Source: Musa acuminata AAA Group | Taxonomy: Eukaryota > Streptophyta > Magnoliopsida > Zingiberales > Musaceae | Assembly: GCF_036884655.1 (NCBI RefSeq) | Contig: NC_088344.1 | Location: forward strand, 36,616,501 to 36,680,500 | Direction: 5' to 3' | DNA length: 64,000 nucleotides | Part shown: piece after piece, positions 33,679 to 63,604 of the stretch | Numbering within the stretch: the first letter of the stretch is position 1 | Layout of the letters: every line of letters starts with the position of its first letter | The notes under the pieces: model-generated | What the model was told of the DNA's origin: nothing | Databases searched by the model: none | The model's input: the letters and a program-made list of their open reading frames with translations, nothing else | Position numbers and translations under genes: made by a program

Positions 33679-34989
33679 ATATCAATGATTATTGAGCTAA
33701 ATGATCAAGTGAATGACCTTTGTGTTGAATTTATCGAGAAGCATCAACTATAAATAATATATTATTTTTTCTTTCCTTATCTTTTCGATGGATCATTCTA
33801 TTTCAAACTCTCTAAAAACTTAGGCATCGGAGAACCAATATATTGTTTGGTGGTACTAATTGCCACATATGTCCATCAGGTAGTTCAAAATAGTCAAGAT
33901 TGATTAGGCAACAATCATCAGTTTACCTATCTATAAATTTAGCCCTTCTTAAATAAATCTATATAACAAATTTGAGGATAATTTTCCAAACCAAAACTAT
34001 ATAATACATAGAGCGCATTCTAATCAACTATGATGATCGGGGTAGGTACGCACATCCATCAATTAAATTCAAACCTTAGCACGGTGACACGAGTCCAGCC
34101 GTGGGAAAGCAACCCTTTTATTTCTCTATCATCTTCTTCTAGAAATGGCTGAGATCTAAGCTGATCGTGCATGGATTGTGATCTAGAGAAGATGAGATGA
34201 GTCATGATCGTTTACCTTACGTGTCAGATTTTGATTGAGAGATTCTTTTTCGCCACATCACCTACAAGCCACCGTGGATGCTGCCCAACACGTCTTTGCA
34301 GTTCTAAATCCGTGGCAAATGTTGCGGCTTGCGGGTGACACGGCTCTGTTCACGAACCCAGACACGACGAGTCGGTGACCGAGAAGCTTCGCCGATGTCT
34401 CCCAGCCTCTTTGCGCGTCACCCAAACGTGAGCCTCACTCTCTTTTGGTCGTTGCCAACCCGACACCGAGCCGGAGACAAAAAACGCGTTACTGCGGCCC
34501 CGAGACCGCAACAGTGTCCGCACGTGAACCGCACCGTGAAGCCGGTGGGTTTCACACCACCACCGGGGCTGCCGTCACCGACCGTCTGATGTTTTCCTCG
34601 CCTCGAACTTACCGTCTGCGGCCCCGCCGTCAACCCTCCCACCACCGAGACGGGGGGATCTGACGCCCACACGTCGTCAGCAGCGCGCCGGGTCAGCGCC
34701 CGGTCTCCCACGTGCTGAGGGCTGGTCAAATGCCGGTGCTCCACAACTGGCACGCGTCCGACGAGCCATGGAATTTGACATCGGTATCCCCCACCACGAG
34801 CTCCTCGTGATCGTGGACGAGTCCTCGTCGCCTGCGTAAAACGCCAGCCAAATTATTGCGAAGGGAAGCGATGGATCGAAGCTTATTTATATGCATAGTA
34901 TGAAGGGAGCAACGGAAGAGTCTTCCTCTTTCTCTCTCTCGGACCAACCTCGTCTCCTCTTCGTTTACCACGTCTCTGGCGCACTGTCC
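33679..34989. other. Promoter region of the WRKY gene
   Basis: AT-rich to about 34240, then GC-rich with ACGT-containing motifs. A TTATTTATATG TATA-like sequence is near 34883, about 105 bp before the WRKY start codon. Long open frames on both strands at 34329-34753 reflect high GC and have no family character. Confidence 0.5.
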
Positions 34990-36422
34990 ATGGCTGGAGA
35001 TCAGGGGAGGGAGCATTACCACTTCCTGTTACATGACGAGTTGTCGGCGCTCTTCTCCCAGAAGCCACCGGGCGGCGCAGCAGACCCTGGTCCACGCGGC
35101 TTCCACCTGCAGGCAGTGTCACCGCTCCTGAGCTTCACCGACTTGTTGCATGGCCCGGCTATGGACTACGACTCGCTAGGTAGAGATTTGGGTTTGTCAT
35201 GTTCGGCGCCGTCAGGTGTGGTTGGTTCCGGTGGGACGGCGTCGCGTGAGCTGATGACTGGTGGTAACGACAATGCTCGTTACGGGTGCGGTGGAGGTGC
35301 GACCCCGCTGACACCGAATTCTTCGGTCTCTTCATCGTCCACTGAGGCAGCAGGCGAAGAGGACGGAGAACGGTGTAAGAAGGATCAGCTGAAGCAGGAG
35401 GATGAGGAGGAGGAGGAGGAGCAACAAGCCAAGGATGATGATGACGGGGGCGATACGTCTAAGAAAGTGTGAGTTCTCATGAAAACTGAAAAGTCTCCTC
35501 TTGCCTTTTCCTGCTTTTCACTTTCTGCTCTGCCTAAAGGTTTGATTGTGTTGGACGATGGCAACTTCAATCGTAGATGGGGTTTGGTTTCGCTTTGGGA
35601 TTTTTTCTCTCACTTGTGTGATCTCGACCTCTATGTTTCGACACATTAAGCTTTTTGACTCGAGCCAGCCTTAAGGTCTTGCCTGTTTCTGTTCTTCGAT
35701 CCCAAAGTCTTTCCCTTGAGGTCTTTAGCTTTCGGGGCGCAGCCGGGGATCATCAATGCATGAACATCCAACTATATTCCGACACCGTAGCAGCTGAATC
35801 ATTCGCTTCCTACGGTCTGATCGCTTGAAACTGGATGCAACAGGAATAAAACCAAGAAGAAAGGAGAGAAAAGGCAAAGGCAGCCCCGTTTCGCCTTCGT
35901 GACCAAAAGCGAGGTTGATCATCTCGACGATGGCTACCGGTGGAGGAAATATGGCCAGAAAGCAGTCAAGAACAGCCCTTATCCAAGGTAAGTCAAACCG
36001 TAAGCATGAGAGCTCGTGACATGTTTGGTCGCATCCTTACCGCCGAACCAACATATCTGTACAGAAGCTACTATCGTTGCACGACTCAGAAGTGCCCGGT
36101 GAAGAAGAGGGTGGAGAGGTCCCATCAAGATCCCACGATCGTGATTACCACCTACGAAGGCAAACACAATCATCAGAACCCTGCAACAGCTCGAGGGAGC
36201 ACACACCTGATAGCATCTCTTCCCATGATGTCGACCAGCTTCTGCCAGGAGCTCATGATGCACCAAATCCCGCAACTTAACAGCATCGACACCCAGCAAG
36301 GGAACACGAACCCTAATGTGTTCCTCGCGAGCCTACTGCCTTCGCTCCAGCAGTCTCACTTCCCCGACTACGGTCTCCTGCAGGACATCGTTCCTTCCTT
36401 GGTCGACGGCAGCCAACCATGA
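34990..36422 (+). CDS. WRKY transcription factor, group IIc
   Basis: Three exons: 34990-35468, 35844-35987 and 36065-36422; 326 residues. The single WRKY domain has WRKYGQK at 193-199 and a C-X4-C-X23-H-X-H zinc finger (C213, C218, H242, H244), the group I/IIc pattern; with only one domain this is IIc. The intron after the Arg-208 codon's AG matches the conserved R-type WRKY intron. The domain ([35 protein letters not shown]) is closest from memory to the WRKY28/71/48/23 set; a specific name would be a guess. Exon 1 encodes a Ser- and Gly-rich region and an acidic run ([10 protein letters not shown], about 136-146), followed by a Lys-rich nuclear localisation stretch. Acts in the nucleus on W-boxes. 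An earlier in-frame ATG at 34903 is possible. Confidence 0.92.
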
Positions 36423-38850: not shown

Positions 38851-39576
38851 TTAGTCATCAAGGTCCTGTATTCCGAGTTTCTCAACTTCTGACTTGAGGG
38901 ATTTCAAATATCTAACAGCTTCATCAAGGACGACCGTCGTGTCCATCTGATCTCCGCCAGGTATAATGCCCCTGAGAGCTTCGACCATCTTTTTCATCCT
39001 ATCCCTCTTTCTATCGGCACTGTTCAAAGTTGACTTGTGACTGGAAGCATTTCCCAATGTGTGACATCCCAGATCTTCCATGAAGCGTGGTGAGTCTGGG
39101 AAATTGTCATCCTGGTTGTAGACAGGAGTCCTACCGGTGCTGATTACATCGTCATCTTCATCATTTTCTTCTTCTGAACTAAGCAGTGCATTAATATCTT
39201 CAGTGTCTTCTTTGAAAGATGATGAACATTCTTCTTTAATATCAGTATTTCTGCCAATGATTTTGCCATATTCTTCAACACATGCAGCACCAACATGGAA
39301 GTTTGAGGAACCAAACTCGTGAACCAGAGCAGGGTGGGACATGACCCGATCTGTGTTGTCCATCTGATTAAAAATGAAGTTCTTGGGGCAGGTTTCAGAG
39401 AGTTGGTGCTTGAATCTACTAAATGTACCAGGAATTTCATATTTTCTCCCAGGTTGAGCAGCACCAAAGGTAAGGGTAGGAACACCATTGGTATAGATGT
39501 TATAGGTGTAGCCACCCACTTCATATGGATGAGCGGGTGGTACATTTCCTGCAAAATATCTTGGGTCTCCGTGCAT
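38851..39576 (-). CDS. SAC51/bHLH144-type atypical bHLH transcription regulator
   Basis: The main ORF lies in one exon: 241 residues, from the ATG at 39576 to the TGA at 38851. Recognisable SAC51-family features are ETCPKNFIFNQMD (about 61-73), an acidic Ser/Glu middle, and a C-terminal helix-loop-helix (about 185-235: RMKKMVEALRGIIPGG, then TVVLDEAVRYLKSLKSEVEK). The basic region lacks the His-Glu-Arg residues that contact E-boxes, so it probably acts by dimerising with other bHLH proteins. In Arabidopsis this family (SAC51, SACL1-3) controls vascular growth, and its translation is released by thermospermine through a conserved uORF; such a uORF is present here (39957-40774). Transcription is leftward from about 41.6 kb. 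Confidence 0.88.
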   Translation of the reverse strand: MHGDPRYFAGNVPPAHPYEVGGYTYNIYTNGVPTLTFGAAQPGRKYEIPGTFSRFKHQLSETCPKNFIFNQMDNTDRVMSHPALVHEFGSSNFHVGAACVEEYGKIIGRNTDIKEECSSSFKEDTEDINALLSSEEENDEDDDVISTGRTPVYNQDDNFPDSPRFMEDLGCHTLGNASSHKSTLNSADRKRDRMKKMVEALRGIIPGGDQMDTTVVLDEAVRYLKSLKSEVEKLGIQDLDD

Positions 39577-39672
39577 GGAGACAAAAGATTATTGGATCCT
39601 TTGCTGCCGAAATGGGGATGGTTGGATGGTCTTCAGCAGGCAGAAGTATATGGCTTTCAAATGTGTCTCCAA

Positions 39673-39777
39673 TTTTCTTTTTTTCTTTTTTTGAGTAAGT
39701 GACCAAGACAGGATTCAGTCTCAAGACCTTGCGATAGACTATCAAAGTATTTATCAACTAAGCTAGTTGACACCTTT
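39673..39777 (-). mobile_element. SINE with perfect 11-bp target duplication
   Basis: On the minus strand the element begins AAAGGTGTCAACTAGCTTAG, with a tRNA-like A box (TAGCTTAGTTGATAAA) and B box (GGTCTTGAGACTGAATCC) at normal spacing. It ends in an A-rich tail, AAAAAAAGAAAAAAAGAAAA. It is flanked by identical TGTGTCTCCAA at 39662-39672 and 39778-39788. It lies between the conserved uORF and the main ORF of the bHLH144-type gene, in the sense direction. An intron from a GTAAGAT donor (39817) to a CAG acceptor (39604) would remove it from the mRNA; which form is made cannot be told. Confidence 0.9.
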
Positions 39778-39956
39778 TGTGTCTCCAAAAGTTACTATGT
39801 GCTTCCGAATATCTTACCAGATTATCACTTTAGAAAAGATTGTGTGGTAGCAAATTATATGTCACCAATGTATTATCTTCCCAATCTTGCATCTATCATT
39901 ATTCTTATGGCAGATCGATGACTAAAGAGGATATTATAGCCCAGCTTACTTTGAAA

Positions 39957-40774
39957 CTACGTTACAGGCTTAAGCAACTGGCGGAAGTACTCAGCCTAGC
40001 ATTTGGAAGGACAAGATCAATAGCGTTATAATATATAAGAGCTCAAATAAGAAGGAAATAAAGAGTACGAACCAAGAAAATATACTATCCAATACATACA
40101 GACATCCAAACAAAAGACAAGGATCATCTTATAGACATTATAAATATAAAAATAGTAATATATAGCATGTACATAAAGAATAGAAAAAACTATAGCACAA
40201 ATCAAAATATCTTTGTAAGGATAAGCACATTTCACTAATGAACTGATTTCTAAATAAGCTCATTTTGGCCAAACTATCATCAAACAAAAAAGCAAACAGT
40301 TGTCTGCATTTCAGCAATATAAGCCGAAATTGTCATGAGACATGATATATCACGAAATATAATTAATTCTACATACTATTTAGTTTGTTTGCCTATGATT
40401 ATAGAAGAACAATACTCATATGAATTAAGAGGAAGTCAATAATTTCAATCATGAAGGATTAATATATACAATGATCAGCATAACCCTTAAAAGGAATCAA
40501 AAGTGGAGAAGAAATCATAATAATGGATCAGAACCTAACAACATTTTGTGTTGACAGGACAAGATGCATAACATAGGACAATTCCAAAGGATATATACTA
40601 CAGTTTGCAATGGGCACAAAATAAAGTATAACCAAAGCAAAGGAGTATGAAAAAACAGGGAATCACCTGACAAAATTGCATCAATTGATAGAAAGCAATG
40701 ATTCTAACGTTCATTATGATTTCCCCAACTTCCTCCACAGTGCAGTATCTCTTTAAGTCGAGCTCAATGTACAT
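39957..40774 (-). CDS. Conserved uORF of the SAC51 family, split by an intron
   Basis: Two minus-strand exon parts, 40774-40667 (36 codons) and 39995-39957 (12 codons plus stop), join in phase 0 across a CAG|GTGATT donor and a TAG|GCTGAG acceptor. They encode a 48-residue peptide ending FCQAEYFRQLLKPVT. From memory, the SAC51-family conserved-peptide uORF ends in a nearly identical CQAEYFRHLLKPVT, preceded by an RVIAC-like block; here RIIAFYQLMQ. In that family the peptide stalls translation of the main ORF and thermospermine relieves it. The exon starts at 40840 after a TTTTGTGCAG acceptor, and an in-frame stop upstream supports a separate short ORF. It is easily missed because neither exon piece alone looks like a gene. 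Confidence 0.88.
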
Positions 40775-41441
40775 TATCACCACTTCAAATCCAATATAAT
40801 TGAGTCATTAAACCAAACAATCGGCTTCAGTTCGTGTTACCTGCACAAAAGTATGCATAAAAATACGACTAGAAAGAATCTTACAATAGCAACGTAAATC
40901 TTATGATAATTGGAGAGAAGGAACACAGAATCAAAATTCAACCTTTATCCTCTTCCGCAAAAAGTTCAACATAGATCAAAACAAGCAAGAAGCGGGGACA
41001 TACACAATAACACGGGAAAAGACAACTAGGCAAGCACGCTTCTTATTGCCGTCGTAATGAATCGGGAGGGACGACACCCACGGCATGATGTTTGACCTCA
41101 CGTCTTTCCAGCAATTCTGGTCAACAATCAAAGTGAAGATCCTCGTATTATAATAAAGTCAAAACCAGACCCTCCATGCCACGAAAAATTCACAGAAGAA
41201 CAGAGACGAAACACATAATTCGATGACAAACCGAGACATACGCTACATTTGATAAAAAAGATGTGCGAGATCGAGAAGGACATCCAGATCTCCAAGTAAT
41301 AAAAAGAGAGAACCTTTAATAAAAAGTCATAGAGGATCCAAGGAAACAAACAAGAAAACAACGACGAACAGATGGATATAAGAAGTAGAGGAAACATGCC
41401 GCGATGGCATAAAAGTTAGGAATACCGAGTTACAAACTTAC

Positions 41442-41640: not shown

Positions 41641-41662
41641 ATTGTGCCCTCTAACCTTAGGC

Positions 41663-43697: not shown

Positions 43698-46600
43698 ATG
43701 GACACGCCGGCCGTCTCTTGTAAGTCCATGGCCGTGGGTGATTCCGTGTCAGAAGACATGGCGTGGAGCCTCGTGTGGGGTGTGGGCGGGCTGCTGCTTC
43801 TGGTGTGGGCGCTGAGGACGCTGAACCGGGCGTGGTGGACGCCGAGGCGGCTGGAGCGCGCGCTCCGGGCGCAGGGGCTCAACGGCACCCCCTACCGCTT
43901 CCCCAAAGGCGATCTCAAGGAGAACGTGCGGCTCGACAAAGAGGCGCTCTCCACGCCCATGCCTCTCACCCACAACATCGTCCCTCGCGTCCTCCCTTTT
44001 CTCCGTCGCGCCATCGACGAGTACGGTAAGCCTCTCTTTTTCGACGTTGTTTTCGAGATATTTGATGCGTGCAATCAACTTGTTTGATTTATTGCCTATT
44101 AGAGAGGATCTTGACGAAGGACTCGTGAATCCATGCAGGCAAGATATGCTTCACTTGGTTTGGACCAGTACCCCGAGTGACGATTATGGATCCCGAGTTG
44201 GTGAGGGAGGTTCTTTCCAACAAGTTCGGCCACTTTGGTAAGCCCAAAGGAATCCTCCTCGGAAGGTTTCTCTTTAGAGGACTTGTTTCGTACGAAGGCG
44301 AAAAGTGGGTGAAACATAGGAGGATTATGAATCCTGCTTTCCATGTTGAGAAGTTGAAGGTGACTCATTGCCCCTGTTGGAGATAATCTTGTTTGTAGCT
44401 TGGTTTATGTGAAAATGTCGGCCTCCTTCGAGCCTATTGAAACGAATTGACTTCTCTTTTTTTCTCTTATCCTCATCATTTACAGCGAATGTTGCCAGCA
44501 TTCTGTGCTTGCTGTAGTGATCTGATGAGCAGGTGGGAGAACCTGGTTGGCTCCGAGGCATGTTACGAGTTGGATGTTTGGCCTGAGTTCCAAAGCTTCA
44601 CCGGAGATGTCATTTCACGAACAGCTTTTGGTAGCAGTTACGAAGAAGGAAGACGAATTTTCCAACTCCAAACCGAGCAGGCTGAACTCGTTATCCAGTC
44701 TATCCAAAATCTATACATCCCAGGTTACATGTAAGTTATTGCCTTTGGTTTCTTCATTTATTGTTAGCTGAATGCTGGTTAGTGTAGTGGTTCTATTGAG
44801 TAGGCAGTTGGTCGATTGCTGCTTGCTTTGTTGCTCACCCAGTTACAAGCATCCCATGCCTCTTTATCAGACTCTCAACCAATAACATAACGAATCGAAA
44901 CGTTCTTCATTTTTTCGATTGCAGAAGTTGATGATTACTTGTAAAATTTTCTAGAGCAGGTACTCGTTGCAGAAGTTTCAATTAGGATAACTTAGTAAAA
45001 TCGTGTCTTTATTGCCATCTTCAGGTGGTTCCTTAACACAAACAATAACCGATTGCTTCAATTCTGTTTTTCACATAATCTATTGAGCTAAACCAACTTT
45101 ACTTTCAAGTAATATGTAGGGTATCGCTAACTAATGGCTATCATACAGGTTTCTTCCGACCCCTAAGAACAAGAGAATAAAAGCAGTCGATAGAGAGGTC
45201 CGAGCACTTCTTCGAGGCATAATAAAGAAGAGGGAACAGGCTATAAAATTGGGTCAAGCAAGCAACGATGACCTGTTAGGCATATTGATGGAGTCCAATT
45301 TAGAGCACTACCAAGAACATGGGAACAAGAATGCTGGGATGACTACAGAGGATGTGATTGAGGAATGCAAGCTGTTCTACTTTGCAGGGCAAGAAACAAC
45401 ATCTGTGCTGCTAACATGGACAATGATCGTCTTGAGCATGCATCCAGGCTGGCAGATTCGGGCTAGGCAAGAGGTTCTTCAAGTCTTCGGAGAACGCAAA
45501 CCAGATTTTGATGGCTTGAGTCACTTAAAGAATGTAAGATTTAGTTTTGTTCTTTGTTATCCTGCTTAGTTGACCAGAAAGAACAAAAAAAAAAAATCAA
45601 ATAGGGAAACATAAGTATTTTAAAATTTTAGTTTTGTTAATGTCTATAAAGCAATGAGAGTTAATCTGTTCCTTGTTAAGGATCTGAAATCTGAATTATG
45701 TAAACAATGTCTTTACAAAATGCAAGTCAATGATCTTTCACATGTCCTGGATTAGCAGGAGCCTGATGCTGCACCTTTAGTTACAGATTCAGCAAACCAG
45801 TAAACGATGAAGCTTTCCTACATTTTAACTGAAATTTTGGGTTGCTTTTCCAATTATAATGTCGCTATATGTTTGATGAGTGACTTCAAATCATATTATA
45901 GAATGTTAGCTTCATTGTTTTCGAATCATATTATAAAATGTTGACTTCATGATGTAACTCTTCAGCCTCAACATATGTATCTAATTAATGAAAAAACCAT
46001 ATTGTCAGAAAGATACAGCTCCTGCTAATCTATGTATCTAAACATCCATGTTTCTTATATTATTAGTTTTATGTTGCTATATGTCTGATAGTTCCTCCAT
46101 GTTTCTAAATGAAATACAGCTCAAGGATGTCAGTTAGATACTTTCTTTTCTTATACTATATGTCAGAGAATTCTGTTCTTTTACTTTTTGTTTTTGGATT
46201 GACCTTTCAGAGAGATCTTACCAAACTTGTCATTATCTAAACATCTGAAACAATCCGCTGGAATTTGTGGCAGGTTACAATGATTCTATATGAGGTTCTC
46301 AGGCTATACCCACCAGTGGTTTTCCTCCAGAGGCAGACATACAAGACACTGAAACTTGGAGATGTGATTTACCCACCAGGTGTGATGCTTTTGATGCCGG
46401 TAATCTTCATTCACCATGATCCGAACTACTGGGGCAAAGATGCCAACGAGTTCAATCCAGAGAGATTTGCAGAAGGGGTTTCAAAGGCATCAAAAGACCA
46501 GGTCGCATTCTTTCCATTCGGTGGGGGTCCTCGAATCTGCATCGGCCAGAACTTTGCATTGCTGGAAGCCAAGATGGGACTAAGTATGATCCTTCAACGA

Positions 46601-46699
46601 TTCTCATTTGAGCTTTCACCATCTTATACCCATTCTCCACACAAACTTGTAACTCTTCAACCTCAACATGGTGCTCAAATAAGGTTACGTAGGTTTTGA
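43698..46699 (+). CDS. Cytochrome P450, CYP72A-type, copy A
   Basis: Five exons: 43698-44025, 44139-44359, 44486-44730, 45149-45533 and 46274-46699; 534 residues, all phases consistent. An N-terminal membrane anchor at about 21-42 ([20 protein letters not shown]) places it on the ER. P450 signatures: oxygen-binding AGQETT (344-349), K-helix EVLR (400-403), PERF (455-458) and haem loop [12 protein letters not shown] with the iron ligand Cys482. Sequence style ([30 protein letters not shown]) is CYP72A, a clan that hydroxylates terpenoids, gibberellins or herbicides with NADPH-P450 reductase; the substrate cannot be told. Exon 1 is GC-rich and the others are not. An alternative start is Met11. 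It appears intact. Confidence 0.92.
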
Positions 46700-48674
<1,975 letters not shown>

Positions 48675-51259
48675 ATGACCGTACAGCAGCCTCAGCAGCA
48701 GCAGCAAGTGGCCAACAACTTCACCTCACAGTTTGCAGTCATGTCCAAGGCCCAACTCTATGATCCTCTCTCAAATGAAAGTATGCTCTTGTCTCCGCAA
48801 TGAAATAAAATTTCTTCCCTTCTTTCGTATATCCACAACGAAAGTGATTATCATCAATGCTCTTTTTTCTTTCTTTTTGTTTCACTAGGATCTTTTCCTT
48901 CACATAATTTAGGAGTGCTGCTTGTGGTATTTTTAATAACATGGATTTGGATGATGGGATTGCTTTGCGTTCTGTGTCTTCATGGATATGGAGAATTGAG
49001 ATACACAGTCATGTGATTTCAGATTTTACTATGTAACCTTTTTTTATTAAATAAGTTTCTTTTATTTGGTGCCCTCATTTTATCTTTCATGTCTCATGTT
49101 TTTTTTTACTCATTGATAGTGCAGCTGATCCAAGTCCTTAGGACCTTCTTACATTTTAGACTTTAAACAGAATAGGAAATTTTTTTATGAAGTTTTGAAA
49201 CTTCAGCAGTAGTCTAACAATGAAATTATGCTTCAGGGTTTTTCCAGGGAAGTCGTGTGATATGATCTTTAACCAAATATTTGCTGAATTTGGTTGGGCT
49301 ATTTTGTGCTTTGTACTTCATTATAAATGCGTAACAGTATTCTTTCTCAGCTCTTTGTTGTCAAAAGTCTTGGTGTACATTTAGAAGCAGACAAATTTTA
49401 CGCGCACACAGATTTATGAATGTGTCACAGTATTCTTAGTCAGCTCATTGTGGGCAAAAGGCTTGATGTGTATTTGGAAGAGGACAAAAATCTTATACAC
49501 ACATGCCTGCACGCACACACGCACATTAACTTTTAGATCAACTGTTCCCTGGAGTAGTCCAGGGATTCTTAAGAAGGTCCCACCAAATGTGTGAAACCAT
49601 TTTTGGTGTCTGCTGCAAGTCATGTGTTTTGAAATAAAAATATAACAAAAATAAAAAAAATCCTTTTTAGGAGCATTATATACTTGGTTGAGGTGAGAGG
49701 AAGCTAGACGAGACTTGACAGATGGGTTTAAAATAACCTATTATAAGCACAGGCAATGAGATTATGTACGTTTAGCAATTTGATAGGTGGATACAACGTG
49801 TTGGACTTTATTAATGAAAGCTCATGGTTGATACATAGCTTATGATTGGGTAAAAATGGAAAGGTTCTTCACACTTAAGGTTTAAGAGACATGAACAAAA
49901 CTATTCAAGTAGTGTGAAATTTGTGCAGTTTGTATTATAGAATGTTGGTCTAAGAGTGCTTAATTAGAAAAAATAGGATGTGAGATACATTATGTGAGAT
50001 CAGAACAAGGATTCTGACATAAGATGTCCAGAATATCTGGTACCTAAGTGCACAAAAGCATTCCTGTAAAATGATGCAAGTTGACTCTTGAACCTGGATC
50101 CAGTACTGTAATGATAGCCCACTGTTCCACTAGGATATGCTCTCTTGCTAGACTGGATATCATGAATATTCTTGTTTTTTTGCTTTGGATATGTATAAGA
50201 GAGAGATGCAGTTTGCTACTTGTATGGGTCATCTTTGATTAAAGTTACAAGTTTTGTGTTTTATTTGGCATTTTTCAGAGTCTAATTTCTTGAGTCCTTT
50301 TTTTCTCCTTGTTTTAAAAATTATATGCATAAGCATTATGTATGAAAGTTTGAAGAATTTATTATTAAAATTGTGCTTTGTTTCAGCACAAATAATGCTT
50401 GGAATGGTACAATCTCCTAAAGTGTTAATCTTTTATGTATTGATTTAGACAGTACCTTGTAAATCAATAGATTCAGCTGTGAATAACTAATGCTTTCTTG
50501 TTTTATAGATGTCCAACACTCAACAAGCTTGCCGACAACCACAACCAGCACAAGTCGGACAGCCACAGATTGTTCACAGTTTGCAGACAGTGCCTGCTAA
50601 AGTTGGAGAACAATCTGAACCTGGTTGATCTCAATCACTGCTATCAGCTAGACAACAGCATCCAACACAACCATCCATTTCTGTTCCACCTGCATCTGTT
50701 CCACGGTTGACCTTCCAATCGAAGGCAATGCCATTGCCACTTTCAGAACCACAAACTAAGGGCTTTCTGAATCTCCAAGTTCCTTCAGTAACACCTATAC
50801 AATCGTCCCAGATTCAAAATATATCTCAACCCAACCTTGCTGCTCCACATTACTCAAATCTTCCATCCCATATGCCGATGATCTCTGTACATCCACAGCA
50901 AACTTTGCAGAATCCTGGACTGTTCAATCAACTCCTGCAGCCGCCGTTACCACTGCAGCCTAGACAGGTTGCAATGCAACCTTTCGCTCTTCAGTTTCAT
51001 CCACAGATGCCTCACTCGCTTGGTCTTCAACCATCCAGTGCACCTCAACAGCTTTTATCACAACCCTTGTTTCACGTAAGTTGGTAACTGGAACCTTCAT
51101 GACTTTTCCAGGAATTGTTTTCATTTTTATGTGCAGAAGAGATTGCTAGCAAAAGATGACAGACCACTCTGAATTGGTCAGTCAGGTATCACACCTCCAT
51201 CCTCCTTCCCACAAGGTCAGGCACCACTTCCAAGTCAGCCACCACAGCATCTTTATCAG
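48675..51259 (+). pseudogene. Broken ESP1/CstF64-like gene (duplicate)
   Basis: Close copy of the gene at 60850-63604 but disabled in several places. In the first coding exon a 2-bp loss near 48763 shifts the frame. The second exon, encoding the hinge segment ALIEQNQQEARQILVDNPLL, is deleted together with its flanks near 48888. The third exon has lost a G at its acceptor (50385), and its donor GTGGTAATC has become GTGTTAATC (50423). The fourth exon has a TGA at 50626-50628 in place of TCA. The Pro/Gln-rich exon (50510-51078) and the short exon at 51182-51259 survive. The copy ends at the duplication junction near 51478, so the gene's downstream half is missing. It may still be transcribed, but no normal protein is expected. 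Confidence 0.9.
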
Positions 51260-52321: not shown

Positions 52322-55301
52322 ATGGACACGCCGGACGTCTCTTGTAAGTCCATGGCCGTGGGTGATTCCGTGTCAGAAGACATGGCGTGGAGCCTCGTGT
52401 GGGGTGTGGGCGGGCTGCTGCTTCTGGTGTGGGCGCTGAGGACGCTGAATTGGGCGTGGTGGACGCCGAGGCGGCTGGAGCGCGCGCTCCGGGCGCAGGG
52501 GCTCAACGGCACCCCCTACCGCTTCCCCAAAGGCGATCTCAAGGAGAACGTGCGGCTCGCCGAAGAGGCGCTCTCCACGCCCATGCCTCTCACCCACAAC
52601 ATCGTCCCTCACGTCCTCCCTTTTCTCCATCGCGCCATCGACGAGTACGGTAAGCCTCTCTTTTTCGACGTTGTTTTCGAGATATTTGATGCGTGCAATC
52701 AACTTGTTTGATGTATTGCCTATTAGAGAGGATCTTGACGAAGGACTCGTGAATCCATGCAGGCAAGATATGCTTCACTTGGTTTGGACCAGTACCCCGA
52801 GTGACGATTATGGATCCCGAGTTGGTGAGGGAGGTTCTTTCCAACAAGTTCGGCCACTTTGGTAAGCCCAAAGGAAACCTCCTCGGAAGGTTTCTCGTTA
52901 GAGGACTTGTTTCGTACGAAGGCGAAAAGTGGGTGAAACATAGGAGGATTATGAACCCTGCTTTCCATGTTGAGAAGTTGAAGGTGACTCGTTGCCCCTG
53001 TTGGAGATAATCTTGTTTGTAGCTTGGTTTGTGTGAAAATGTCGGCCTCCTTCAAGCCTATTGAAACGAATTGACTTCTCTTTTTTTTCTCTTATCCTCA
53101 TCATTTACAGCGAATGTTGCCAGCATTCTGTGCTTGCTGTAGTGATCTGATGAGCAGGTGGGAGAACCTGGTTGGCTCCGAGGCATGTTACGAGTTGGAT
53201 GTTTGGCCTGAGTTCCAAAGCTTCACCGGAGATGTCATTTCACGAACAGCTTTTGGTAGCAGTTACGAAGAAGGAAGACGAATTTTCCAACTCCAAACCG
53301 AGCAGGCTGAACTCGTTATCCAGTCTATCCAAAATCTATACATCCCAGGTTACATGTAAGTTATTGCCTTTGGTTTCTTCATTTATTGTTAGCTGAATGC
53401 TTGTTAGTGTAGTGGTTCTATTGAGTAGGCAGTTGGTCGATTGCTGCTTGCTTTGTTGCTCACCCAGTTACAAGCATCCCATGCCTCTTTATCAGACTCT
53501 CAACCAATAACATAACGAATCGAAACGTTCTTCATTTTTTCGATTGCAGAAGTTGATGATTACTTGTAAAATTTTCTAGAGCAGGTACTCGTTGCAGAAG
53601 TTTCAATTAGGATAACTTAGTAAAATCGTGTCTTTATTGCCATCTTCAGGTGGTTCCTTAACACAAACAATAACCGATTGCTTCAATTCTGTTTTTCACA
53701 TAATCTATTGAGCTAAACCCACTTTACTTTCAAGTAATATGTAGGGTATCGCTAACTAATGGCTATCATACAGGTTTCTTCCGACCCCTAAGAACAAGAG
53801 AATAAAAGCAGTCAATAGAGAGGTCCGAGCACTTCTTCGAGGCATAATAAAGAAGAGGGAACATGCTATAAAATTGGGTCAAGCAAGCAATGATGACCTG
53901 TTAGGCTTATTGATGGAGTCCAATTTAGAGCACTACCAAGAACATGGGAACAAGAATGCTGGGATGACTACAGAGGATGTGATTGAGGAATGCAAGCTGT
54001 TCTACTTTGCAGGGCAAGAAACAACATCTGTGCTGCTAACATGGACAATGATCGTCTTGAGCATGCATCCAAGCTGGCAGGATCGGGCTAGGCAAGAGGT
54101 TCTTCAAGTCTTCGGAGAACGCAAACCAGATTTTGATGGCTTGAGTCACTTAAAGAATGTAAGATTTAGTTTTGTTCTTTGTTATCCTGCTTAGTTGACC
54201 AGAAAGAACAAAAAAATAAAATAAAATAGGGAAACATAAGTTTTTTAAAATTTTAGTTTTGTTAATGTCTATAAAGCAATGAGAGTTAATCTGTTCCTTG
54301 TTAAGGTTCTGAAATCTGAATTATGTAAACAATGTCTTTACAAAATGCAAGTCAATGATCTTTCACATGTCCTGGATTAGCAGGAGCCTGATGCTGCACC
54401 TTTAGTTACAGATTCAGCAAACCAGTGAATGATGAAGCTTTCCTACATTTTAACTGAAATTTTGGGTTGCTTTTCCAATTGTAATGTCGCTATATGTTTG
54501 ATGAGTGACTTCAAATCATATTATAGAATGTTAGCTTCATTGTTTTCGAATCATATTATAAAATGTTGACTTCATGGTGTAACTTATTACTGAAAAAACC
54601 ATATTGTCAGAAAGATACAGCTCCTGCTAATCTATGTATCTAAACATCCATGTTTCTTATATTATTTGTTTTATGTTGCTATGTGTCTGATAGTTCCTCC
54701 ATGTTTCTAAATGAAATACAGCTCAAGGATGTCAGTTAGATACTATCTTTTCTTATACTATATGTCAGAGAATTCTGTTCTTTTACTTTTTGTTTTTGGA
54801 TTGACCAGTCCGAGAGATCTTACCAAACTTGTCATTATCTAAACATCTGAAACAATCCGCTGGAATTTGTGGCAGGTTACAATGATTCTATATGAGGTTC
54901 TCAGGCTATACCCACCAGCGGTTTTCCTCCAGAGGCAGACATACAAGACAATGAAACTTGGAGATGTGATTTACCCACCAGGTGTGATGCTTTTGATGCC
55001 GGTAATCTTCATTCACCATGATCCGAACTACTGGGGCAAAGATGCCAACGAGTTCAATCCAGGGAGATTTGCAGAAGGGGTTTCAAAGGCATCAAAAGAC
55101 CAGGTCGCATTCTTTCCATTCGGTGGGGGTCCTCGAATCTGCATCGGCCAGAACTTTGCATTGCTGGAAGCCAAGATGGGACTAAGTATGATCCTTCAAC
55201 GATTCTCATTTGAGCTTTCACCATCTTATACCCATTCTCCACATACACTTGTAACTCTTCAGCCTCAACATGGTGCTCAAATAAGGTTACGTAGGCTTTG
55301 A
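52322..55301 (+). CDS. Cytochrome P450, CYP72A-type, copy B
   Basis: Five exons with lengths identical to copy A: 52322-52649, 52763-52983, 53111-53355, 53774-54158 and 54876-55301; 534 residues. Membrane anchor, [12 protein letters not shown] and the haem loop [12 protein letters not shown] (Cys482) are intact. It differs from copy A at scattered sites, among them DKEALS to [15 protein letters not shown] to [15 protein letters not shown] to LVRGLV, and, most notably, PERF to PGRF (E456G). The Arg of the E-R-R triad is kept, so the enzyme may still fold, but the change sits in a strongly conserved motif. No stop or splice defect is seen. Its downstream flank is cut short at about 55396 by the junction with unit 3. 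Confidence 0.9.
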
Positions 55302-55751
55302 ATCACTTATTTTGTTTATTATGATATTACGATATGCTTTGGGCGTGTTCTCTTCATAGATACTCTTTTCTGTTTCAAGTTGTCTATTGAAAGGTTGACA
55401 TTATAAATTTTAGTGTAACATTATATCCCTCCAAATAGTAAACGACTCCACGTACGTCAGTATCCTTAACGTCCGTGTTAATCACATTTACTGTTGTCAG
55501 TATTCGTTTATTTGAGTTAAGTAAATATATGCAATATAAACATTCTAATATACTGTATTGTTATAGTGCATATGAGTTTGTAAAAGATATTAATATAATA
55601 TTTAGAATTTTAATAAATAATTAATTTATAATAATTTAATATAAGTTATTGTTGTATAAAAATATTATAACAAGACTCGTTCATCAACTAATGGATAAGA
55701 AAAAAAAGAGGTATTTCCCAGAAAAATCTAAAAAATAAGTTTTTTTGAATA

Positions 55752-55753
<2 letters not shown>

Positions 55754-55828
<75 letters not shown>
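55754..55828. repeat. (TA)n tract upstream of CYP72A copy C
   Basis: 75 bp of TA ending 108 bp before the start codon. Because a stop present in copies A and B is lost here, the frame of copy C is open through this tract. Confidence 0.95.
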
Positions 55829-55833
<5 letters not shown>

Positions 55834-55936
55834 TGTGGATATGTCTAAGAACAGTAACGTAAGCGCTGAAGTCATCCCGGTCCTCGTTGCCAACTTTGAC
55901 CGTCGAAAGATCTTATGTACCCCGTCATCCGAGGAA

Positions 55937-58929
55937 ATGGACACGCCGGGCGTCTCTTGTAAGTCCATGGCCGTGGGTGATTCCGTGTCAGAAGACATGG
56001 CGTGGAGCCTCGTGTGGGGTGTGGGCGGGCTGCTGCTTCTGGTGTGGGCGCTGAGGACGCTAAATTGGGCGTGGTGGACGCCGAGGCGGCTGGAGCGCGC
56101 GCTCCGGGCGCAGGGGCTCAACGGCACCCCCTACCGCTTCCCCAAAGGCGATCTCAAGGAGAACGTGCGGCTCGCCGAAGAGGCGCGCTCCACGCCCATG
56201 CCTCTTACCCACAACATCGTCCCTCGCATCCTCCCTTTTCTCCGTCGCGCCATCGACGAGTACGGTAAGTCTCTCTTTGTCGGCGTTGTTTTCGAGATAT
56301 TTGATGCGTGCAATCAACTTGTTTGATGTATTGCCTATTAGAGAGGATCTTGACGAAGGACTCGTGAATCCATGCAGGCAAGATATGCTTCACTTGGTTT
56401 GGACCAGTACCCCGAGTGACGATTATGGATCCCGAGTTGGTGAGGGAGGTTCTTTCCAACAAGTTCGGCCACTTTGGTAAGCCCAAAGGAAACCCCCTCG
56501 GAAGGTTTCTCTTTAGAGGACTTGTTTCGTACGAAGGCGAAAAGTGGGTGAAACATAGGAGGATTATGAATCCTGCTTTCCATGTTGAGAAGTTGAAGGT
56601 GACTCATTGCCCCTATTAGAGATAATATTGTTTGTAGCTTGGTTTATGTGAAAATGTCGGCCTCCTTCAAGCCTATTGAAACGAATTGACTTCTCTTTTT
56701 TTCTCTTATCCTCATCATTTACAGCGAATGTTGCCAGCATTCTGTGCTTGCTGTAGTGATCTGATGAGCAGATGGGAGAACCTGGTTGGCTCCGAGGCAT
56801 GTTACGAGTTGGATGTTTGGCCTGAGTTCCAAAGCTTCACCGGAGATGTCATTTCACGAACAGCTTTTGGTAGCAGTTACGAAGAAGGAAGACGAATTTT
56901 CCAACTCCAAACCGAGCAGGCTGAACTCTTTATCCAGTCTATCCAATATCTATACATCCCAGGTTACATGTAAGTTGTTGCCTTCGGTTTTGTTAGCTGA
57001 ATGCTTGTTAGTGTAGTGGTTCTATTGAGTAGGCAGTTGGTCGATTGTTGCTCGCTTTGTTGCTCCCCCAGTTACAAGCATCCCATGCCTGTTTATCATA
57101 CTCTCAACCAATAACATAACGAATCGAAACGTTCTTCATTTTTTCAATTGCAGAAGTTGATGATTACTTGTAAAATTTTCTAGAGCAGGTACTTGTTGCA
57201 GAAGTTTCAATTAGGATAACTTAGTAAAATCGTGTCTTTATTGCCATCTTCAGGTGGTTCCTACAAGAGCTTTAACACAAACAATAACCGATTGCTTCAA
57301 TTCTGTTTTTCAAATATTCTATTGGGCTAAACCAACTTTACTTTCAAGTAATATGTAGGGTATCACTAACTAAGTGCTATCATACAGGTTTCTTCCAACC
57401 CCTAAGAACAAGAGAATAAAAGCAGTCAATAGAGAGGTCCGAGTACTTCTACGAGGCATAATAAAGAAGAGGGAACAGGCTATAAAATTGGGCAAAGCAA
57501 GCAACGATGACCTGTTAGGCTTATTGATGGAGTCCAATTTAGAGCACTACCAAGAACATGGGAACAAGAATGCTGGGATGACTACAGAGGATGTGATTGA
57601 GGAATGCAAGCTGTTCTACTTTGCAGGGCAAGAAACAACAGCTGTGCTGCTAACATGGACAATGATCGTCTTGAGCATGCATCCAGGCTGGCAGATTCGG
57701 GCTAGGCAAGAGGTTCTTCAAGTCTTCGGAGAACGCAAACCAGATTTTGATGGCTTGAGTCACTTAAAGAATGTAAGATTTAGTTTTGTTCTTTGTTATC
57801 CTGCTTAGTTGACCAGAAAGAACAAAAAAAAAAAAAAATCAAATAGGGAAACATAAGTTTTTTAAAATTTTAGTTTTTTTAATGTCTATAAAGCAATGAG
57901 AGTTAATCTGTTCCTTGCAACTTGGGTGGTTAAGGATCTGAAATCTGAATTATGTAAACAATGTCTTTACAAAATGCAAGTCAATGATCTTTCACATGTC
58001 CTGGATTAGCAGGAGCCTGATGCTGCACCTTTAGTTACAGATTCAGCAAACCAGTGACCGATGAAGCTTTCCTACATTATAACTGAAATTTTGGGTTGCT
58101 TTTCCCATTATAATGCGGCTATCTGTTTGATGAGTGACTTCAAATCATATTATAGAATGTTAGCTTCATGGTTTTTGAATCATATTGTAAAATGTTGACT
58201 TTATGATGTAACCTATTAATGAAAAAACCATATTGTCAGAAAGATACAGCTCCTGCTAATCTATGTATCTAAACATCCATGTTTCTTGTATCATTAGTTT
58301 TATGTTGCTATATGTCTGATAGTTCCTCCATGTTTCTAAATGAAATACAGCCAAGGATGTCAGTTAGATACTCTCTTTTCTTATCCTATATGTCAGAGAA
58401 TTCTGTTCTTTTACTTTTTTATTTTGGATTGAACGGTAAGAGAGATCTTACCAAACTTGTCATTATCTAAACATCTGAAACAATCCGTTGGAATTTGTGG
58501 CAGGTTACAATGATTTTATATGAGGTTCTCAGGCTATACCCACCAGCGGTTTTCCTCCAGAGGCAGACACACAAGACAATGAAACTTGGAGATGTGATTT
58601 ACCCACCAGGTGTGACGCTTTTGTTGCCGGTAATCTTCATTCACCATGATCCGAACTACTGGGGCAAAGATGCCAACGAGTTTAATCCAGAGAGATTTGC
58701 AGAAGGGGTTTCAAAGGCATCAAAAGACCAGGTCGCATTCTTTCCATTCGGTGGGGGTCCTCGAATCTGCATTGGCCAGAACTTTGCATTGCTGGAAGCC
58801 AAGATGGGACTAAGTATGATCCTTCAACGATTCTCGTTTGAGCTTTCACCATCTTATGCCCATTCTCCACACACGCTTATAACTCTTCAACCTCAACATG
58901 GTGCTCAAATAAGGTTACACAGGATTTGA
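55937..58929 (+). CDS. Cytochrome P450, CYP72A-type, copy C
   Basis: Five exons of the same lengths as copies A and B: 55937-56264, 56378-56598, 56725-56969, 57388-57772 and 58504-58929; 534 residues. [16 protein letters not shown] and the haem loop with Cys482 are intact. Changes against A include SLFVGV at the exon 1 donor region (intronic), [13 protein letters not shown] for [21 protein letters not shown] for LGQASNDD and VTLLLPV for VMLLMPV. I chose the ATG at 55937 by homology with copies A and B. The upstream TAA of A and B is TTA here, so an in-frame ATG at 55841 could add 32 residues before the anchor. It is the most diverged of the three. Confidence 0.9.
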
Positions 58930-60849: not shown

Positions 60850-63604
60850 ATGACCGCACAGCAACCTCAGCAGCAGCAGCAAGTGGCCAACAGCTTCACC
60901 TCACAGTTTGCAGTCATGTCCAAGGCCCAACTCTATGATATCCTCTGTCAAATGAAAGTATGCTCTTGTCTCCTCAAAGAAATAAAAATTCTTCCCTTCT
61001 TTCGTATATCCACAACGAAAGTGATTATCATCAATGCTCTTTTTTCTTTCTTTTTGTTTTTTTTTGTAGGCTTTGATAGAACAAAACCAGCAAGAGGCTA
61101 GGCAGATCCTCGTCGACAACCCTCTCCTGACTCGAGCTCTCTTCCAGGTCCCTTTGCTCTTTCCCTGCGTCATGCTGGCCACTAGGATCTTTTCCTTCAC
61201 ATAATTTAGGAGTGCTGCTTGTGGTTTTTTTAATAACTTGGAATTGGATGATGGAATTGCTTTGCGTTCTGTGCCTTCATGGATATGGAGAATTGAGATA
61301 CACAGTCATGTGATTTCAGATTTTACTATGTAACCTTTTTTTATTAAATAAGTTGCTTTTATTTGGTGCTCTCATTTTATCTTTCATGTCTCATGTTTTA
61401 TTTACTCATTGATAATGCAGCTGATCCAAGTCCTTAGGACCTTCTTACATTTTAGACTTTAAACAGAATAGGAAATTTTTTTATGAAGTTTTGAAACTTC
61501 AGCAGTAGTCTGACAATGAAGTTATGCTTCAGGGTTTTTCCAGGGAAGTCATGTGATATGATCTTTAACCAAATATTTGCTGAATTTGGTTGCACTATTT
61601 TGTGCTTTGTACGTGACTATAAATGTGTAACAGTATTCTTTCTCAGCTCTTTGTTGTCAAAAGTCTTGGTGTACATTTAGAAGCAGACAAATTTTACGCG
61701 CACACAGATTTATGAATCTGTCACAGTATTCTTAGTCAGCTCATTGTGGGCAAAAAGGCTTGATGTGTCTTTGGAAGAGGACAAAAATCTTATACACACA
61801 TGCCTGCACGCACACACGCACATTAACTTTTAGATCAACTGTTCCCTGGAGTAGTCCAGGGATTCTTAAGAAGGTCCCACCAAGTGTGTGAAACCATTTT
61901 TGGTGTCTGCTGCAAGTCATGTGTTTTGAAATAAAAATATAAGAAAAATTAAACAAATCCTTTTTAGGAGCATTATATACTTGGTTGAGGTGAGAGGAAG
62001 CTAGACGAGACTTGACAGATGGGTTTAAAATAACCTATTATAAGCACAGGCAATGAGATTATGTACGTTTAGCAATTTGATAGGTGGATACAATGTGTTG
62101 GACTTTATTAATGAAAGCTCATGGTTGATACATAGCTTATGATTGGGTAAAAATGGAAATGTTCTTCACACTTAAGATTTAAGAGACATGAACAAAACTA
62201 TTCAAGTAGTGTGAAATTTGTGCAGTTTGTATTATAGAATGTTGGTCTAAGAGTGCTTAATTAGAAAAAATAGGATGTGAGATACATTATGTGAGATCAG
62301 AACTAGGATTCTGACATAAGATGTCCAGAATATCTGGTATGTAAGTCACAAAAGCATTCCTGTAAAATGATGCAAGTTGACTCTTGAACCTGGATCCATT
62401 ACTGTAATGATAGCCCACTGTTCCACTAGGACATGCACTCTTGCTAGACTGGATATCATGAATATTCTTGTTTTTTTGCTTTGGAGAGAGATGCAGTTTG
62501 CTACTTGTATGGGTCATCTTTGATCAAAGTTACAAGTTTTGTGTTTTATTTGACATTTTTCAGAATCTAATTTCTTGAGTCCTTTTTTTTCTCCTTGTTT
62601 TAAAAATTATATGCATAAGCATTATGTATGAAAGTTTGAAGAAGTTTATTATTAAAATTGTGCTTTGTTTCAGGCACAAATAATGCTTGGAATGGTACAA
62701 TCTCCTAAAGTGGTAATCTTTTATGTATTGATTTAGACAGTACCTTGTAAATCAATAGATTCAGCTGTGAATAACTAATGCTTTCTTGTTTTGTAGATGT
62801 CCAACACTCAACAAGCTTGGCGACAACCACAACCATCACAAGTCGGACAGCCACAGATTGTTCACAGTTTGCAGACAATGCCTGCTAAAGTTGGAGAACA
62901 ATCTGAACCTGGTTCATCTCAATCACTGTTATCAGCTAGACAACAGCATCCAACACAACCATCCATTTCTCTTCCACTTGCATCTGGTTCATCTCAATCA
63001 CTGCTATCTGCTAGACAACAGCATCCAACACAACCATCCATTTCTGTTCCACCTGCATCTGTTCCACCGTTGACCTTCCAATCGAAGGCAATGCCATTGC
63101 CACTTTCAGAACCACAAACTAAGGGCTTTCTGAATCTCCAAGTTCCTTCAGTAACACCTATACAATCTTCCCAGATTCAAAATATATCTCAACCCAACCC
63201 TGCTGCTCCACATTACTCAAATCTTCCATCCCATATGCCGATGATCTCTGTACATCCACAGCAAACTTTGCAGAATCCTGGACTTTTCAATCAACTCCTG
63301 CCGCCTAGACAGGTTGCAATGCAACCTTTTGCTCTTCAGTTTCATCCACAGATGCCTCACTTGCTTGGTCTTCAACCATCCAGTGCACCTCAACAGCTTT
63401 TATCACAACCCTTGTTTCATGTAAGTTGGTAACTGGAACCTTCATGACTTTTCCAGGAATTGTTTTCATTTTTTTGTGCAGAAGAGATTGCTAGCAAAAG
63501 TTGACAGACCACTCTGAATTGTTCAGTCAGGTATCACACCTCCATCGTCCTTCCCACAAGGTCAGGCACCACTTCCAAGTCAGCCACCACAGCATCTTTA
63601 TCAG
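60850..63604 (+). CDS. ESP1/CstF64-like mRNA 3'-end processing factor without RRM (partial)
   Basis: Five coding exons are visible: 60850-60957, 61070-61147, 62674-62712, 62797-63420 and 63527-63604; 309 residues, phases consistent, the rest beyond the window. Residues 17-75 match the hinge of CstF64 (FAVMSKAQLYDILCQMK, then ALIEQNQQEARQILVDNPLL, then AQIMLGMVQ), the part that binds CstF77/symplekin in cleavage and polyadenylation. There is no RNA-recognition domain before it, as in Arabidopsis ESP1, a CstF64-like factor known from silencing screens. A long Pro/Gln/Ser-rich region follows. The start is at the first ATG after the leader intron. Exon 4 contains a 25-residue tandem duplication absent from the pseudogene copy. 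It appears intact. Confidence 0.85.
62911..63060 (+). repeat. 75-bp in-frame tandem duplication in the ESP1-like coding exon
   Basis: The segment encoding GSSQSLLSARQQHPTQPSIS plus LPLAS (62911-62985) is repeated as the same 20 residues plus VPPAS (62986-63060). The pseudogene at 50620-50700 has only one unit, and it ends VPPAS like the second unit. Confidence 0.95.

Follow-up and report, generated by a model that had tools for sequence, protein, structure and literature searches.

A probable homology group 15 upstream ORF, divided by an intron, in the leader of a banana bHLH144 gene

Results

Organization of the locus

The window that we analysed, 64,000 nt of Musa acuminata AAA Group (contig NC_088344.1, positions 36,616,501 to 36,680,500 of the forward strand), carries on its minus strand a gene for a bHLH144/SACL3-type transcription factor whose leader contains a conserved upstream ORF (uORF) in two pieces (Table 1). 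In tail-to-tail orientation to this gene, the plus strand carries a probable WRKY gene (34891–36422), of which the 35940 piece matches PF03106 and the 34891 piece does not. The window also holds three tandem P450-like gene copies, recognized by the likeness of their ORFs (43698–44087, 52322–52711 and 55745–56326, plus 46265–46699, 54867–55301 and 58495–58929); among the pieces tested, the one at 46265 matches PF00067, and those at 43698 and 52322 match nothing. Two pieces of a Gln/Pro-rich ORF (50707–51087 and 62797–63432) look much alike by eye and were perhaps duplicated together with the P450 block; no Pfam family matches the one at 62797.

Table 1. Features of the bHLH144 gene and its leader, listed 5′ to 3′ along the transcript (window coordinates; a slash marks a splice site)
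Feature	Position	Strand	Remarks
Predicted first leader intron, CC/GTAAGT ... GTGCAG/GTAAC	40841–41441	minus	splice-site consensus
Short uORF MTQLYWI (7 codons), before the conserved uORF	40785–40808	minus	predicted leader
Conserved uORF, first coding piece (codons 1–36)	40667–40774	minus	108 nt
Phase-0 intron inside the conserved uORF, CAG/GTGATT ... TGCTAG/GCT	39996–40666	minus	671 nt; 21 ATGs inside
Conserved uORF, second coding piece (AEYFRQLLKPVT + TAG)	39957–39995	minus	39 nt
Two short uORFs between conserved uORF and main ORF	39830–39899	minus	8 codons, 39899–39873; 20 codons, 39892–39830
SINE-like insertion with repeats	39662–39788	minus	leader, between uORF and main ORF
Main ORF, bHLH144/SACL3-type transcription factor	38851–39576	minus	241 codons; uninterrupted

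Joined in phase 0, the two coding pieces specify a 48-residue peptide, MYIELDLKRYCTVEEVGEIIMNVRIIAFYQLMQFCQAEYFRQLLKPVT, which ends in CQAEYFRQLLKPVT and is followed by TAG. Two internal AUGs lie in frame within the first piece, at 40714 (M21, 28 codons) and at 40681 (M32, 17 codons). The uORF span holds 49 GT and 30 AG sites, and 12 GT-AG pairs with a spacing of 60 nt or more stay in frame to LLKPVT without another stop; among these 12, the 48-residue peptide, which has the length of most homologs, arises from the 40667/39995 junction only. An earlier note on this DNA had described a uORF in two pieces; its exons, phase, 48 residues and TAG stand, and its span of 819 bp is corrected to 818 bp. 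The count of leader uORFs begins at position 41660, an arbitrary choice that leaves out an ATG lying slightly further upstream.

The main ORF begins 380 nt after the uORF stop at the window locus. Its relatives number 227 proteins at E ≤ 0.001, from 416 candidates, and many are named bHLH144; the 120 of these 227 that were listed include P0015 (97%) and a Canna indica protein (65%). A partial Musa troglodytarum model is 90% identical over 63% of the query. The match of the main ORF itself to PF23173 (bHLH_SAC51) has an E value of 7.8e-5 and 23 bits, below the curated cut-off of 28.5, and P0015 bears a precomputed PF23173 label.

Homologs of the uORF peptide

A single-sequence phmmer search of 5.77 billion sequences with the uORF peptide found 14 proteins, including yam, lotus and grass peptides, the best of which (E 1.9e-17) is a full-length match from the yam Dioscorea alata. 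This protein, IHE45_04G076600 (P0001), has 48 residues, is 83% identical to the banana peptide, and was deposited as a hypothetical protein rather than as a uORF. A profile search, with 175 candidates, extended the set to 139 proteins at E ≤ 1, the fern Ceratopteris among them. The earlier note had attributed the peptide to the SAC51 family of conserved uORFs, upstream of a bHLH144-type gene; the full-length homologs in other plants, with E values down to 1.9e-17, and the bHLH144 ORF downstream bear this out. Chance likeness is ruled out by that E value together with the 12 copies in the genome itself.

Counts of homologs were taken from the 120 listed of the 139 profile matches. Ninety-three of these are continuous through the tail; 24, here called run-on homologs, extend beyond Cys-Gln into other residues, and 3 stop at that point. 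An N-terminal motif that we defined divides the 93 into 73 bHLH144-like and 20 SAC51-like peptides. With positions counted ungapped from the tail, Q42, L43, L44, K45, P46 and T48 are invariant in all 73 bHLH144-like continuous homologs; the pattern by which these rows were picked contains the start of the tail, so that Y39-F40 is fixed in them by construction. M21 occurs in 68 of the 73, M32 in 47, and both in 44. None of the 73 has the residues E4, D6, C11 or F34 of the window peptide; all four recur in the Musa troglodytarum model P0017.

The position relative to a bHLH144 gene recurs in other plants. In Gossypium hirsutum the peptide (ERO13_A05G150100v2) and a bHLH144 protein (ERO13_A05G150000v2) have neighbouring locus tags, and in Spirodela and in Tripterygium the longest contigs named by the peptide entry and by the bHLH144 entry are equal in length, which we count as further linked placement. 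That annotation would overlook such a uORF, as had been predicted, holds in part at most: the peptide is annotated in several genomes as a hypothetical protein of its own, and its first exon has been built into 5 of the 120 listed bHLH144 models.

Copies in the banana genome

Searching the same genome with the first exon gave 12 matches, all of which were fetched. Each has a 48-codon uORF with the same phase-0 CAG/GT split and a TAG stop, and each stands before a bHLH144 ORF; the division of the coding part by an intron, as the earlier note had it, is thus predicted alike for the whole set. We read the 12 as four paralogs in three haplotypes, since their contigs are numbered eleven apart, 11 being the chromosome number of Musa. 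Queried with the main ORF, the genome yielded 84 matches, from 150 scored candidates out of 197. Those reaching upstream of query residue 139 lie at the 12 uORF loci only, and the remainder are limited to about residues 139–237, the bHLH end.

The uORF peptide is under purifying selection. Ka is below Ks in all six paralog pairs (Ka 0.094–0.189, Ks 0.431–1.339), in a coarse estimate from 48 codons and one haplotype per paralog, with first-exon Ks saturated in pair A–B; the last 14 codons show no amino-acid change and one to four silent changes in every pair. Comparison of the haplotypes of the window copy shows 0 or 1 nt of difference in the uORF, 3–8 substitutions in the intron and 5–10 in the main ORF. 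At paralog B (L012–L014), the main ATG is in frame with the uORF stop, at a distance of 102, 105 or 108 nt according to haplotype; L013 was the haplotype examined for intervening stops, and there the frame stays open, so that TAG alone separates the two ORFs.

We placed the banana proteins in a tree of 28 rows, comprising the four banana copies and 24 relatives chosen by us among the 120 listed. The window protein forms a group with P0015 and a single Canna protein (100/100). The three remaining banana copies fall together with Canna and Zingiber proteins, two of each (100/100). Some of the deeper forks are weak. This grouping places the window copy in a lineage separate from, and older than, that of the three paralogs.

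The leader of the window copy differs from those of the paralogs in several respects. Its uORF intron is 671 nt long, against 110, 98 and 107 nt, and opens with GTGATT where the paralogs have GTACAT, GTAATT and GTAGTC. M21 is common to all four; M32 is found in the window copy only. The distance from uORF stop to main ATG is 374–380 nt, against 102–204 nt, and this interval contains one or two AUGs, against none in the paralogs; the AUG of the 8-codon uORF (39899) is missing from the haplotype on contig C7. The SINE-like element, 105 bp long (39673–39777) and flanked by the 11-bp direct repeats TTGGAGACACA (39778–39788 and 39662–39672), is present in all three haplotypes of the window copy and, among the four paralogs, in that copy only. 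It has at least 42 matches in its own genome at 73–100% identity, 3 of which are the window locus, and so is a dispersed repeat; presumably it is a SINE, judging by eye from a tRNA-promoter-like look and an A-rich end. A tRNA scan of the window with bacterial settings found none, and Rfam at gathering thresholds gave no match.

The uORF intron

In all 12 copies the intron sits in phase 0 after Cys-Gln and before Ala-Glu-Tyr-Phe. The run-on homologs point to the same position elsewhere: in 23 of the 24, Cys-Gln is followed by Val (GTN), the residue expected from a retained GT donor; P0182, with Gly, is the sole exception. These homologs are kin, so the 23 cases are not 23 independent events, and they may be just genomic sequence. 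Four pairings (P0136/P0187, P0153/P0207, P0142/P0211 and P0142/P0213) share an identical first exon, with one partner continuous and the other running into Val, which argues for splicing at the uORF in other plants; in four further such pairings, the first exons are one residue apart. That the split is a novelty of the window locus is therefore ruled out: it is common to the bHLH144-like uORFs of other plants and to all 12 own-genome copies.

Were the intron of the window copy kept, AEYFRQLLKPVT would give way to 22 unrelated residues in an ORF of 58 codons, so the suggestion that retention changes the peptide is right as to form. Retention as a switch is doubtful, since the retained intron puts 21 AUGs into the leader and probably would not free the main ORF. 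The GTGATT donor seems, by eye, weaker than the consensus donor GTAAGT. Our literature search covered open-licence papers, and we do not claim the intron position as unpublished. In those papers the string LLKPVT was not found, SACL3 together with uORF and splicing turned up only PMC3426882 in the text searched, and SAC51 with banana gave, by title and abstract, only work on common bean.

Discussion

From comparison with other plants we conclude with considerable confidence that a banana bHLH144 (SACL3-type) gene carries here, in its leader, a homology group 15 conserved peptide uORF; repression of the main ORF by this uORF, and its easing by thermospermine, would follow the pattern of those plants. 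The peptide has the AEYFRQLLKPVT-type C-terminus with a fixed stop position, and it lies upstream of a SAC51-family bHLH main ORF. Group 15 uORFs are recorded from Arabidopsis and rice to a fern (PMC2075485, PMC3426882), and the banana uORF is an ordinary addition to these known leader peptides. Its nearest counterparts are the SACL3/bHLH144 uORFs such as those of rice SACL3A and SACL3C and soybean SACL3, which would likewise have a 48-codon type, the same tail, internal in-frame AUGs and a bHLH144 ORF; the bHLH144-type run-on homologs have the banana intron position. Peculiar to the banana copy beside these are the 671-nt intron, the SINE-like insertion, and E4, D6, C11 and F34. Arabidopsis SAC51 (bHLH142) has uORF4 and uORF6 at the same place in its leader, and the 20 SAC51-like homologs have the banana tail, whereas the SAC51-type peptide has 53 codons and a different N-terminal half. 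SAC51 has four exons, with three leader introns and the main ORF in the fourth exon (PMC4308196); exons 2 and 3 contain the uORFs (PMC6504692). Two leader introns are predicted in banana.

If the banana leader works as those of Arabidopsis, rice, soybean and Brassica do, a uORF translated along with its invariant C-terminal tail would hamper translation of the downstream bHLH ORF, perhaps through stalling and perhaps by exposing the mRNA to NMD, and thermospermine would ease this repression. On this reading, splicing of the intron is constitutive, and its position goes back to the ancestor of the gene group rather than being a device of the window locus. PMC6504692 reports that disruption of uORF4 or uORF6 raises reporter output from the Arabidopsis SAC51 leader and that loss of both overlapping uORFs abolishes the thermospermine response. 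It lists as responsive the leaders of Brassica SACL1, rice SACL3A and SACL3C, and soybean SACL3, all with both uORFs, and as nonresponsive those of AtSACL2, AtSACL3, OsSACL2, PtSACL2, GmSACL2 and BoSACL3, so that, on this account, family membership is no guarantee of a response. The same paper records that thermospermine had no effect in wheat-germ extract, that a leader without any uORF also lowered translation, that the basal level fell when uORF4 and uORF6 were both lost, and that a minimal uORF6 alone did not respond; together these results leave peptide stalling unproven even for SAC51. Suppressor mutations fall in the conserved uORF and in ribosomal proteins (PMC11913374). Like the responsive leaders, the banana leader has internal in-frame AUGs, and M32 may be the counterpart of uORF6, to judge from a "second methionine" description and from homolog P0232. 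An extension for which we see little likelihood is that the intron at the tail border, conserved in position among plant bHLH144 leaders, serves as a second switch, with splicing determining if the repressive tail is produced, and that the banana paralogs divided the job, the window copy alone retaining M32, a start perhaps linked to the thermospermine response, together with a long GTG-donor intron.

Other readings were weighed against this one. The intron lies directly before the invariant tail, at a position kept across the bHLH144-like group; its retention leaves a 58-codon ORF without the tail; and the GTGATT donor stands apart from the GTA donors of the three paralogs. All this could suit a switch in which regulated retention of the 671-nt intron drops the tail and alters bHLH output in some tissues. 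We nevertheless think such a switch very improbable, because the 21 AUGs added before the main ORF should make the retained mRNA translate poorly, introns of 98–110 nt at the same position in the paralogs are as expected of a plain ancestral intron, and the run-on homologs are perhaps mere genomic sequence. A motif scan showed that the uORF first exon opens five bHLH144 models among the 120 listed (P0017, P0057 and P0062 from Musa, P0097 and P0119 from Salix), as if it were spliced into the bHLH ORF to supply a new N-terminus, with the uORF as a by-product. Those models join at varying places and lose the tail, and fusion leaves a conserved tail with its stop unexplained; we give it scarcely any credence, less than regulated retention. 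In the window copy the main ATG is preceded at 12 nt by an in-frame stop, and the gap contains no AG; the whole main ORF therefore cannot join in frame, and that form of fusion is ruled out; a splice into the main ORF itself, as in P0017, may occur. Least probable of all, in our judgement, is that the window uORF is a decaying relic that no longer acts. Among the four paralogs, the SINE-like insertion, the extra AUGs after the uORF and the much longer intron are indeed found here only, and E4, D6, C11 and F34 are absent from the 73 homologs, yet the 48 codons persist in all three haplotypes, which vary there by no more than 1 nt, and the tail is intact.

The reading of the locus as a bHLH144 leader with a group 15 uORF, spliced at an ancestral position, also bears on annotation. 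The split at a fixed place probably explains why the Musa and Salix models fuse the first exon to the bHLH protein, and these five are probably mis-annotations. For banana, this reading would place a known thermospermine-linked translational switch at four bHLH144 paralogs in three haplotypes. Since the paralogs differ in their internal starts, they would offer a natural comparison for the start that the thermospermine response needs.
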